Shown: positions 46,388-57,724 of the stretch, one piece after another | Position numbering within the stretch: the first letter of the stretch is position 1 | Layout: every line of letters starts with the position of its first letter | NCBI RefSeq assembly: GCF_003966955.1 | Contig: NZ_AP019367.1 | Location: 806,001-870,000, forward strand | Direction of reading: 5' to 3' | DNA length: 64,000 nucleotides | Source of the DNA: Parolsenella catena | GTDB lineage: Bacteria; Actinomycetota; Coriobacteriia; Coriobacteriales; Atopobiaceae | Notes under the pieces: generated by a model | Database searches by the model: none | What the model was told of the DNA's origin: nothing | Seen by the model: only the letters and a program-made list of their open reading frames with translations | Program-made: the position numbers and the translations under genes

Positions 46388-46416
46388 TTGACCACGAACG
46401 ATTGTTCGTGTATCAT
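46388..46416 (+). promoter_or_regulatory. recA promoter
   Basis: TTGACC (46388-46393) and TATCAT (46411-46416) are separated by exactly 17 bp. The predicted start of transcription lies just before the GGGAGGT ribosome site and ATG 46431, giving a very short leader. Confidence 0.82.
46395..46408 (+). promoter_or_regulatory. LexA operator (SOS box) in the recA promoter
   Basis: CGAAC-GATT-GTTCG is a perfect match to the Gram-positive/actinobacterial SOS box CGAAC-N4-GTTCG, extended on both sides to CACGAAC/GTTCGTG. It fills the space between -35 and -10, so LexA binding would block RNA polymerase. Confidence 0.9.
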
Positions 46417-46430
46417 GTCGGGAGGTAGCA

Positions 46431-47537
46431 ATGGAAGGGAACGAGATGGCTAAGTCCAACGCGGTTTCGCGAGAGATTCACGCGCCTACCACGGGCGAGG
46501 AACGCACGAAGATGATCGAGTCCACGACTGCCGAGATTGAGAAGAAGTTCGGCAAGGGCGCGATCATGAAGTATGGCGAGGGCGGGCCTGACCTTCACGT
46601 CGAGGCCATCCCCACGGGCTCCCTCGCCCTTGATGTCGCCCTTGGCATCGGTGGCGTTCCCAGGGGCCGCATCGTGGAGATCTATGGCCCCGAGTCCTCG
46701 GGCAAGACCACGCTCTCGCTCGAGATTCTCGCAGAGGCCCAGGCCATGGGTGGCGTCGTTGCCTTCATCGATGCCGAGCACGCGCTCGATCCCGGCTATG
46801 CCGCTCGCATCGGCGTTGACATCGACGAGGTGCTCATCTCTCAGCCAGACACCGGCGAGCAGGCGCTTGAGATCTGTGACATGCTCGTTCGCTCCGGAGC
46901 CATCGATGTGGTGGTCATCGACTCCGTGGCCGCGCTCGTCCCGCGTGCGGAGATTGAGGGCGAGATTGGAGACACCACGGTGGGTCTCCAGGCCAGGCTC
47001 ATGAGCCAGGCGCTTCGCAAGCTCGCTGGCTCTCTCTCGAAGTCCAACACCACCTGCATCTTCATCAACCAGCTTCGCGAGAAGATCGGCATCATGTTCG
47101 GCAATCCGGAGACCACTCCTGGCGGCCGTGCCCTCAAGTTCTTCTCTTCGGTGCGCATGGACATTCGTCGCATCGACACGATCAAGCAGAGCGGCGACAT
47201 CGTGGGCAGCCGCGTGCGCGTCAAGGTCGTCAAGAACAAGGTGGCCCCTCCCTTCAAGACGGCCGAGTTCGACATCATGTACGGCACCGGCATCTCCAAG
47301 GAGGGTTCGATCCTGGACCTCGGCGTCGACAACGAGGTGGTCAACAAGTCCGGCGCCTGGTACACGTACGAGGGCGAGCGCCTTGGCCAGGGCAGGGAGG
47401 CCGCGAAGGAGTTCCTGCGCAAGAACCCCGATCTCAGGGACGAGATCGAGTCTCGCGTCCGTGAGGTCGTCGGCCTGGAGCCCCTTGAGGGCGTGGAGCC
47501 CTCGACTCCGGTGAGCGCTGAGAGCGATGGCGAGTAG
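46431..47537 (+). CDS. recA: Recombinase RecA
   Basis: RecA forms filaments on single-stranded DNA, drives strand exchange and triggers LexA self-cleavage. The 368-aa product has the P-loop GPESSGKTT (residues 86-94), the KKFGKGAIM start of the core, loop L2 region [16 protein letters not shown], and a C-terminal lobe. ATG 46431 has GGGAGGT 4 nt upstream; the internal ATG at 46446 would also give an intact core. It is controlled by a consensus SOS box. A 13-bp perfect hairpin follows before recX. Confidence 0.97.
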
Positions 47538-56027: not shown

Positions 56028-56681
56028 CTAAAGAGACCTGAGAAGTCCGGTCACCCTGCCAAGAATCGTTGGGTTGTCTGCGTAGATGGGTTCCATCGTG
56101 TCGTTCTCCGGCTGAAGGCGAATTCGATTCTTCTCGCGATAGAAGGTCTTGACCGTGGCGGAGTCATCGATGAGCGCAACGACGATCTCTCCGTTGTGAG
56201 CATCATGCTGCTCTTTGACGACGATGTAGTCACCGTCGAAGATGCCTGCGTTGATCATCGATTCGCCGCGGACGCGGAGGATGAACGAGCTTGAGTCGCC
56301 GATGAGAGACGTGGGGAGCGTCATGACCTCCTCGACGTTTTGCTCGGCCAAGATGGGCGTTCCGGCTGCTACCCTTCCCACGACTGGCAGGGTGACGGTT
56401 CCGCCATCAACGTCTTGGGAAACGCTTGCAAGGTTCGTGGGCTGCTGGAATCTTTCGCTTCCCGGACCGGTTATCTCGATCGTGCGTGGCTTGTTGGGGT
56501 CGCGGCGTATGTATCCGGCCTTCTCGAGACGGTGAAGGTGCGAATGCACTGTCGAGGGGGACGAGAGCCCGATTGCGGCCCCGATCTCTCGTACTGAGGG
56601 CGGGTAGCCGTGCGTTGCCGTGAAGCTGCATATGAAGTCATAGGCCTGCTGCTGGCGTGCGGATATCTTTACCTCAGACAT
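56028..56681 (-). CDS. lexA: SOS repressor LexA
   Basis: LexA represses SOS genes and cleaves itself when RecA filaments form. The 217-aa product has a winged-helix DNA-binding domain (residues 1-70, GYPPSVREIGAAIGLSSPST), the cleavage bond Ala106-Gly107 within GRVAAGTP, and the catalytic dyad Ser141 (GESMINAG) and Lys178. ATG 56681 has GAGGAGG 5 nt upstream; the frame runs further but that part overlaps the promoter. It is divergent from a small membrane-protein gene and is followed on its own strand by an acyltransferase gene. Confidence 0.96.
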   Translation of the reverse strand: MSEVKISARQQQAYDFICSFTATHGYPPSVREIGAAIGLSSPSTVHSHLHRLEKAGYIRRDPNKPRTIEITGPGSERFQQPTNLASVSQDVDGGTVTLPVVGRVAAGTPILAEQNVEEVMTLPTSLIGDSSSFILRVRGESMINAGIFDGDYIVVKEQHDAHNGEIVVALIDDSATVKTFYREKNRIRLQPENDTMEPIYADNPTILGRVTGLLRSL

Positions 56682-56706: not shown

Positions 56707-56735
56707 ATCATACACGCGTTCGACTCAAGATTCAA
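56707..56735 (-). promoter_or_regulatory. lexA promoter
   Basis: On the minus strand TTGAAT (56735-56730) and TATGAT (56712-56707) are exactly 17 bp apart, about 25 bases before the lexA start. The spacer contains CGAAC-GCGT-GTATG (56722-56709), a half-conserved LexA-like site. Confidence 0.75.
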
Positions 56736-56746
56736 ACATTTGTTCT
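56733..56746. promoter_or_regulatory. LexA-like box 1 (overlaps lexA -35)
   Basis: CAAAC-ATTT-GTTCT matches CGAAC-N4-GTTCG at 8 of 10 fixed positions. It overlaps the lexA -35 hexamer. Its start is 28 bp from the next box. Confidence 0.65.
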
Positions 56747-56754
56747 ATTTCTGC

Positions 56755-56782
56755 TTGACACGAACAGCTGTACGTAGATACT
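56755..56782 (+). promoter_or_regulatory. Promoter of the small membrane-protein gene divergent from lexA
   Basis: A consensus -35 TTGACA (56755-56760) is followed after 16 bp by GATACT (56777-56782). The spacer holds LexA-like box 2, the same layout as at recA. Predicted transcription starts about 90 nt before the ATG at 56883. Confidence 0.65.
56761..56774. promoter_or_regulatory. LexA-like box 2 (between -35 and -10 of the small gene)
   Basis: CGAAC-AGCT-GTACG matches the SOS box at 9 of 10 fixed positions and sits directly after the TTGACA of the rightward promoter. Confidence 0.75.
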
Positions 56783-56788
56783 AGGTAT

Positions 56789-56802
56789 AGAACAATTGTT
56801 TG
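56789..56802. promoter_or_regulatory. LexA-like box 3 (at the start of the rightward transcript)
   Basis: AGAAC-AATT-GTTTG matches the SOS box at 8 of 10 fixed positions, exactly 28 bp from box 2, and covers the predicted start of the small-gene transcript. Confidence 0.65.
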
Positions 56803-56882
56803 GGCATTGGACTACAGAAATTATTGTCCTAAATAGTTCGTATAAATGTAGCTGCTGGTATTGCGAGAGAGAGGTTGAGCAG

Positions 56883-57176
56883 ATGAGGAATCGTGAACTG
56901 AATTTTGGCATCGCTGGAACGTCCGCACTTCAGCCTGAGCCGGCGGAATCTGGCTTTCGTGTCATAGACGGTTCCAGGCCTGCTCATGGCGACAGCTTTT
57001 CTCGTGAATCTGAGGGGCGTGGCCCGAGCATCATCTCCAAGGCGGTCAACTGGAACAGACGCGTGAACACCTCTACGTGCGTGGCCCCCGTTATCGACGA
57101 TCGACAGCAGCTCGTTGGCGAGCTCGGCTTTTTCCTCGTCGTGGCCATCGTGGTCCTTGGACTGGCTTTCCTGTGA
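56883..57176 (+). CDS. Small tail-anchored membrane protein, SOS-controlled; candidate division inhibitor
   Basis: I do not recognise the family of this 97-aa protein. Residues 1-77 are polar and contain a single cysteine; residues 78-97 form one hydrophobic helix (FFLVVAIVVLGLAFL) ending at the C-terminus, so it is probably tail-anchored with a cytoplasmic domain. No LysM domain is present. It is divergent from lexA, lies behind LexA-like boxes, and precedes nrdR. In Corynebacterium, Mycobacterium and Bacillus the gene divergent from lexA is an SOS-induced division inhibitor (DivS, Rv2719c, YneA), so a similar role is inferred from position only. ATG 56883 has GAGG 8 nt upstream. Confidence 0.72.
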   Translation: MRNRELNFGIAGTSALQPEPAESGFRVIDGSRPAHGDSFSRESEGRGPSIISKAVNWNRRVNTSTCVAPVIDDRQQLVGELGFFLVVAIVVLGLAFL

Positions 57177-57271
57177 TGGGTTAATTCGGGCGTTTTCGCA
57201 GCGTCCTAGACTAATCCATAGTCGCAGCGTATGGTATGTATCGCTAGTGTTTCTGCGATGTGGAGGAAGCC

Positions 57272-57724
57272 ATGCGCTGTCCCAAATGCGGCTGCGAGGA
57301 GTCCAAGGTCGTTGACTCCAGGCCCGCCGAGAACAATGACTCAATCAGGCGCCGCCGTGAATGCGTCTCCTGCGGCTTTAGGTTCACCACGTACGAGCGC
57401 CGCGAGGAGCTTCCGCTTGTCGTCCGCAAGCATGACGGGTCCAAGGAGCCCTTCGATCGTGAGAAGCTCATGCGCGGTCTCGTTCGCGCAACCGTCAAGC
57501 GCGACATCCCCATTGACGTTCTCGACAAGCTCATCGGCGACATCGAGAGCGAGCTGAGGGACCATGGCACAACTGAGGTGGATTCGAGCGCCCTTGGCGA
57601 GATGGTCCTGCATCGCCTTGCTGACATTGACAAGGTTGCCTACGTGCGCTTCGCCTCGGTCTACCGTGACTTCAAGGATATCGAGGAGTTTTCCGCGGAG
57701 CTGAGGAGGCTCTCTGGTGAGTAG
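57272..57724 (+). CDS. nrdR: Transcriptional repressor NrdR
   Basis: NrdR represses ribonucleotide reductase genes in response to ATP/dATP. The 150-aa product has the N-terminal zinc ribbon MRCPKCGC and [13 protein letters not shown], and the ATP-cone domain starting [23 protein letters not shown] 57272 follows GTGGAGG. The dut gene starts inside its last codons. lexA - small gene - nrdR is the actinobacterial order. No NrdR box pair is visible in the window. Confidence 0.95.

Follow-up and report, generated by a model that had tools for sequence, protein, structure and literature searches.

A small membrane protein gene between lexA and nrdR

The window analyzed here, a stretch of 64,000 nucleotides, is part of a 1.80-Mb single-contig genome that we label G000; our comparison set includes one other genome of the same genus, G059. 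The window contains an open reading frame that starts with ATG and, on translation, closes with a stop codon after 97 amino acids (Table 1). Family matches to both neighbors confirm the proposal of an earlier note on this DNA that the gene diverges from lexA and lies ahead of nrdR. Searches of the product against Pfam and NCBIfam gave nothing at E ≤ 1, and it is therefore taken to lack a LysM domain, which agrees with the note's description of an unrecognized, LysM-free protein.

The last 17 residues are the only strongly hydrophobic stretch of the protein (KD 3.03). AlphaFold2 places a helix at residues 73 to 96, with pLDDT of 90 to 92 over the last two blocks and 68 overall, confidence being low outside this C-terminal helix. 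In a predicted model of one LysM-bearing relative, a small domain of high confidence comes after a long helix, so that the predicted structures agree with the layout described below: a C-terminal helix in the 97-aa protein and a helix plus small domain in the LysM relative. By hydropathy and model, the protein has a single C-terminal transmembrane (TM) helix and no N-terminal signal sequence, as expected of a tail-anchored protein with a presumed cytoplasmic N terminus.

Table 1. Features of the lexA-nrdR region and of the recA locus in the window
Feature	Position	Strand	Basis and remarks
Gene for 97-aa tail-anchored, LysM-less, predicted SOS protein	56883..57176	+	ORF translation, relative in genus, hydropathy
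RBS-like AGAGAGG	56868..56874	+	8 nt upstream of ATG; conserved in G059
lexA	56028..56681	-	TIGR00498, 4.9e-68; divergent from 97-aa gene
nrdR	57272..57724	+	TIGR00244, 9.6e-58; start 96 nt downstream of 97-aa gene
Conserved motif GTSALQPEPAESGFRVIDG, presumably cytoplasmic (codons 12-30)	56916..56972	+	Conserved columns in LysM-bearing orthologues and f4
Single TM helix, directly before stop (codons 81-97)	57123..57173	+	Hydropathy, AlphaFold2
LexA-type box 1, GAACAAATGTTT on - strand, lexA side	56734..56745	-	Palindrome scan
Predicted sigma-70-type promoter, TTGACA-16-GATACT	56755..56782	+	Called by consensus match only; G059 keeps both hexamers
LexA-type box 2, GAACAGCTGTAC, in spacer of predicted promoter	56762..56773	+	Palindrome scan
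LexA-type box 3, GAACAATTGTTT, near expected transcription start	56790..56801	+	Palindrome scan
LexA-type box GAACGATTGTTC, 23 nt before recA start	46396..46407	+	Palindrome scan
recA	46431..47537		Position in window; about 10 kb from lexA

Predicted control by LexA

Three LexA-type palindromes, which the earlier note does not mention, lie 28 nt apart within the 201 nt that separate lexA from the 97-aa gene, and the predicted promoter, box layout and RBS are conserved in G059. We scanned the first 320 nt upstream of lexA at 110 loci, allowing at most one mismatch to GAACNNNNGTTC, and found 320 boxes, compared with a mean of 12.6 and a maximum of 24 after shuffling; 85 of the 110 loci have three boxes each. 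The same type of box precedes recA in the window, which supports their identity, and we take the palindromes upstream of lexA as putative LexA operators. A position beside lexA and before nrdR, under predicted LexA control, is that of the ChiZ/YneA-type division inhibitors, and the conservation of the three boxes across the family supports the position and control of an SOS inhibitor that the earlier note had suggested.

No terminator-like site was found between the 97-aa gene and nrdR (window 57176-57724). With the nrdR start so close, SOS read-through from the gene into nrdR and dut is possible.

At another locus (L140, positions 1492-1523), GAACATATGTTC sits inside a longer inverted repeat and was read as a palindrome resembling a terminator, not as a LexA box; the adjoining gene encodes what we take, from its sequence, to be a ParB-like protein. 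The GAACATATGTTC box itself is present in both genomes of the window genus.

Kinship with LysM-bearing proteins in the same slot

In the order, lexA was matched in 266 genomes, and the 110 loci examined among them comprise 102 from the window family (f1), seven from a second family and one from a third. We tentatively take f1 to be the Atopobiaceae, and families f3 and f4, which appear below, to be the Coriobacteriaceae and Eggerthellaceae. The usual protein in the slot between lexA and nrdR combines an N-terminal motif (GTSAL...(I/V)(E/D)GG in most) with a single TM helix and LysM. Searched with a profile of the LysM part, 102 of the 110 loci give a match, including 94 of the 102 in the window family; of the eight that do not, two belong to the window genus and six are loci where no such gene was found in the slot. 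Six sampled relatives (five from the window family, one from another) match Pfam LysM above its cut-off, and four LysM-bearing relatives tested against the NCBIfam model 'cell division suppressor protein YneA' score 49.0, 53.5, 59.6 and 55.4 bits, the cut-off being 60; E-values of the LysM-bearing sample against these two models run from 4e-13 to 2e-16.

Ahead of the TM helix, most LysM-bearing orthologues carry G(T/S)xAL...(L/F)x(L/V)(I/V)(E/D)GG, with column frequencies of 0.87 (G), 0.91 (A), 0.82 (L), 0.98 (L/F), 0.79 (E/D) and 0.93 (G); the version in the window protein is GTSALQPEPAESGFRVIDGS. The profile search for homologues that the earlier note had proposed yields no library family, but an HMM of the LysM-bearing slot proteins does match, at 19.1 bits for G000 and 26.5 for G059 (best of 2000 shuffles, 6.7). 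Both alignments stop at model position 76-77 of 155, which is the end of the TM helix, and an HMM of the N-terminal half gives the pair E-values of 1.5e-6 and 4.7e-9. When residues 2-64 were shuffled, scores fell to a mean of 3.5 for G000 (maximum 17.8 in 1000) and 2.8 for G059 (maximum 9.6), while shuffling the last third barely lowered them (means of 17.3 and 26.8, respectively). As shuffling the last third costs so little, the homology score comes from the N-terminal half alone. Sequence kinship with the LysM-bearing slot members thus lies in that half; we infer kinship of the protein from motif and slot together, and the TM helices are equated by position.

These results support the relationship to lexA-divergent division suppressors that the earlier note had drawn from gene order, and the motif common to LysM-bearing orthologues in the same slot contradicts its idea of an independent type of checkpoint protein. 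A truly unrelated SOS membrane protein that took over the slot of a division inhibitor would fit the lack of any profile match, the low overall identity and the absence of support from the score for TM equivalence. We nevertheless judge such a replacement very improbable: the N-terminal motif is common to orthologues in the same slot, the N-half HMM E-values are low, and the motif also occurs in family f4, which aligns with the N-terminal half of the LysM form in hhalign (probability 91.4, E 9.2e-7, 27 columns). The synteny survey of lexA loci together with the family HMM led us to reject an unrelated protein.

The 97-aa protein is most likely a gut-actinobacterial descendant of the ChiZ/YneA type that has lost LysM. 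It ends where the LysM domain of these inhibitors would follow the TM helix. In the window genus 590 and 593 nt lie between lexA and nrdR, versus roughly 690-850 nt in most LysM loci, and the shorter span therefore points to the disappearance of about one LysM's worth of DNA. A LysM domain hidden in another frame was rejected, since a scan of the gene's strand in all three frames showed no remnant at the locus, where 95 nt separate the stop from nrdR. Relocation was rejected too, as no LysM was found anywhere in the G000 or G059 genomes. LysM matches occur in 90 of 104 genomes of the window family, nearly always singly and, among the places listed, mostly in this gene; some of the 14 genomes without a match carry the gene with a LysM detected by the family's own profile alone.

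Two features stressed in the earlier note can be placed accordingly. The single C-terminal helix is observed, by hydropathy and AlphaFold2, but as a distinct design it does not stand, since it follows from the loss of everything after the helix. The absence of LysM is true of this protein but not new by itself, as DivS and SosA are also described as lacking it in the account given in PMC6851548.

The slot varies in other ways. At L107 and L062 the reduction is the opposite one, with TM helix and LysM kept, the N-terminal part short and the motif absent (105 and 106 aa). Six of the 102 window-family genomes (L115, L118, L122, L125, L129 and L082) lack a membrane gene divergent from lexA at this place; of the five for which box positions are available, four retain two LexA-type boxes ahead of lexA. 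Two wider genome-contig scans and one viral-contig scan returned no close relative of the 97-aa protein; weak matches (E 0.006-0.08) in 19 other genomes are probably due to chance.

Conservation and selection within the window genus

The window's LysM-less form is known from two genomes, G000 and G059, and the G059 copy is intact (46% identity over residues 2-95, E 1.4e-19). Over the full alignment 41 of 97 residues are identical, and the two LexA proteins are 96% identical. Between the two genomes the gene has a dS of 1.05, a dN of 0.52 and a dN/dS of 0.50, with an excess of synonymous change (Fisher p = 0.003); for lexA, dN/dS is 0.044 and dS 0.83. Selection on this gene pair is purifying and the constraint weak. 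It varies along the gene, from the last third (dN 0.29 vs dS 0.99) to the middle linker, which looks near-neutral (1.08 vs 1.36). In 44 pairs of LysM-bearing relatives that have diverged to a similar depth, whole-gene dN/dS has a median of 0.265 (0.09-0.76), and eight of the 44 reach 0.50 or more in the N-terminal and TM part; judged from its one pair, the window gene is constrained about as loosely as that part of its more variable relatives.

These values bear on the idea that, LysM once lost, the remainder of the gene is decaying toward the complete loss seen in six relatives. Losses in 6 of 102 family genomes and the near-neutral linker would be expected under decay. We consider it improbable, however, given a frame open in both species at a lexA dS of 0.83, a dN/dS below 1, the constraint on the last third, an N+TM ratio inside the range of LysM-bearing pairs, and the promoter, boxes and RBS kept in G059.

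A second LysM-less group and TM-only peptides

LysM is absent from all 30 loci tested in family f4. Instead, 41 of 50 f4 loci (30 plus 20) hold an ORF of 75-129 aa with a motif, G(T/S)(S/A)AL, and a TM helix, and 43 of 44 motif ORFs (f4 plus three from related families) end at most six residues from the scored TM stretch. Motif columns in f4 are G 100, A 100 and L 95%, and the boxes are spaced 28-29 nt apart, much as in the window. Neither Pfam nor NCBIfam assigns a family to the four members tried, apart from a single Pfam match at E 0.13, and synonymous change exceeds non-synonymous change at p < 0.05 in 12 of 13 pairs tried.

Shorter forms occupy the slot elsewhere. The nine motif-less f4 loci have a 23-aa TM ORF in four cases (G199, G202, G203 and G205), one of 34 aa, longer tail-anchored ORFs in two and, by the criteria used, none in the remaining two (G250 and G229). 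In genus g43 of f4, to which these four 23-aa cases belong, a lexA-divergent, TM-only ORF of 23 aa (MSRYEFPVIFALSTLVSFFIFFA type) is present in all seven genomes (loci L154, L257, L262, L235, L165, L258 and L240), 120-124 nt from lexA, with two LexA boxes and, in most, an AGGAG-like site. Six of these frames, with G204 left out, give a pS of 0.19-0.83 and a pN of 0.02-0.26, pS being larger in 15 of 15 comparisons. The g43 ORFs are probably unannotated. Five class outgroups have short tail-anchored ORFs of 29-38 aa in the same slot; as the short ORFs were picked by a hydrophobicity filter, matches outside g43 may include chance ones.

We also considered gene transfer from f4. When 104 proteins are searched with the f4 HMM, the two top scores belong to the window protein (25.2 bits) and its sister (18.3). 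N-shuffled controls, however, reach 18.7, and the window pair ends VIDG(S/G) like its own family rather than IIxF(P) as in f4; transfer was set aside as the less probable course.

Probable order of LysM loss

In a LexA+NrdR tree of 97 genomes, the window genus falls in a 29-row group of its own family with support of 100, the next fork having only 56; with LexA alone, the genus sits at a base of its family that the tree does not resolve. The combined tree shows the window family, f3 and f10 as otherwise LysM-bearing apart from losses, and f4 with eight genomes of related families as a LysM-less clade (support 98). Because of this tree, and because 24 of 31 class outgroups have LysM, the domain was probably ancestral and lost separately in the f4 clade and in the window genus. 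A less probable course is one early loss with LysM regained by the common stock of f1, f3 and f10, which would suit the six LysM-less class outgroups placed just outside the order; even under that scenario the window genus is a separate loss.

A broader reading, which we offer tentatively and hold a little short of probable, is that Coriobacteriia have repeatedly whittled down an SOS division inhibitor, from tail-TM-LysM to a tail-anchored form and, within a single genus, as far as a TM peptide of 23 residues, the LexA boxes staying the same throughout. On this view the membrane helix (with tail) would do the work, acting within the membrane on the septal synthase and needing no hold on the wall, which goes against the YneA model. 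The window gene would be one of at least two separate steps.

A proposed model for division inhibition without LysM

The analysis establishes the gene, its boxes, the common motif, the loss of LysM, purifying selection and the recurrence of the LysM-less form. With modest confidence, we propose that the 97-aa protein is a LysM-less, tail-anchored, lexA-divergent SOS division inhibitor of the ChiZ/YneA type, repressed by LexA along with lexA and slowing septation through its helix and tail; induction, N-in topology, divisome target and inhibition are what we infer beyond the observations. LexA on the three boxes would repress the gene together with lexA, and DNA damage would lead RecA to inactivate LexA, allowing the protein to be made. 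It would insert by its C-terminal helix, leaving an 80-residue tail in the cytoplasm, and the helix may dock in the late divisome (FtsW or FtsI/FtsQ). Helix and tail would then delay septation, the glycan-gripping LysM of the relatives being dispensable in the window lineage. FtsW/RodA-family proteins give three matches in each of the two window-genus genomes.

The need for LysM is contested, with B. subtilis YneA requiring it and mycobacterial ChiZ reported to do without. For ChiZ, the N-terminal region plus TM helix is sufficient for filamentation, according to PMC7355643, which cites earlier work, and a review states that LysM does not appear necessary (PMC3989709). We favor a working inhibitor because the parts reported to suffice in ChiZ are exactly those present in the window protein. 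The TM-LysM proteins in the same slot, the family HMM match, the LexA boxes, the LysM-less f4 clade and the action of the short SidA on FtsW (PMC4211646) also speak for it. Against this stand YneA, in which LysM binding to peptidoglycan is reported as needed to block septal wall synthesis (PMC13396833), and SosA, described as inactive without most of its extracellular part (PMC6851548). Further points against it are that the homology signal comes from the N-terminal half, that two genomes carry the window's form, that its constraint is weak, and that six family members have lost the gene here.

The main rival reading builds on the YneA results: the 97-aa protein would still reach the division site by its helix and no longer inhibit. 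It would be induced by damage and act at FtsW as a placeholder, modulator or decoy. As reported in PMC13396833, the YneA TM helix binds TM7 of FtsW, which brings YneA to midcell, the helix alone sufficing for both; YneA lacking LysM localizes faintly to midcell and interacts with FtsW without blocking division. We think this reading unlikely, since a non-inhibiting form would hardly stay under SOS control throughout a second family (f4), and ChiZ without LysM is reported to be active (PMC7355643).

Natural LysM-less forms kept under predicted SOS control make the LysM question directly testable. Further interest comes from nature's repeated loss of a domain described as essential in a recent paper (PMC13396833). 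Loss of LysM, seemingly more than once, would show which part of this division brake works. The proteins also form an unannotated family missed by profile libraries, whose shortest members, at 23 residues, would probably escape gene finders; in the open-access literature, to which our search was confined, we found no prior description of it.

Comparison with known SOS division inhibitors

Mycobacterial ChiZ (Rv2719c) resembles the window protein in having a single TM helix after a disordered cytoplasmic tail and in its SOS induction, the cytoplasmic location of the tail and the induction being predictions for the window protein. At 165 aa, with LysM at 113-165, ChiZ has the architecture of the LysM-bearing relatives, whereas the window protein ends after the TM helix. 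YneA of Bacillus subtilis is likewise a lexA-adjacent, single-TM SOS protein, and its model gives the LysM-bearing relatives 49.0-59.6 bits; it differs in its N-terminal TM helix and in a LysM reported as essential (PMC13396833).

SosA of Staphylococcus aureus is, like the window protein, lexA-adjacent, small and LysM-less, with one TM helix. That helix lies at residues 10-30 and precedes a conserved extracellular C terminus described as essential (PMC6851548), whereas the window protein, with its helix at 81-97 of 97, has no such C terminus. DivS of Corynebacterium glutamicum is lexA-linked, SOS-induced and LysM-less (PMC6851548), a likeness by description rather than sequence. SidA of Caulobacter crescentus, a 29-aa inner membrane SOS inhibitor reported to act on FtsW (PMC4211646), is too short to hold the tail and motif of the window protein, and is closer in kind to the 23-aa peptides of g43.
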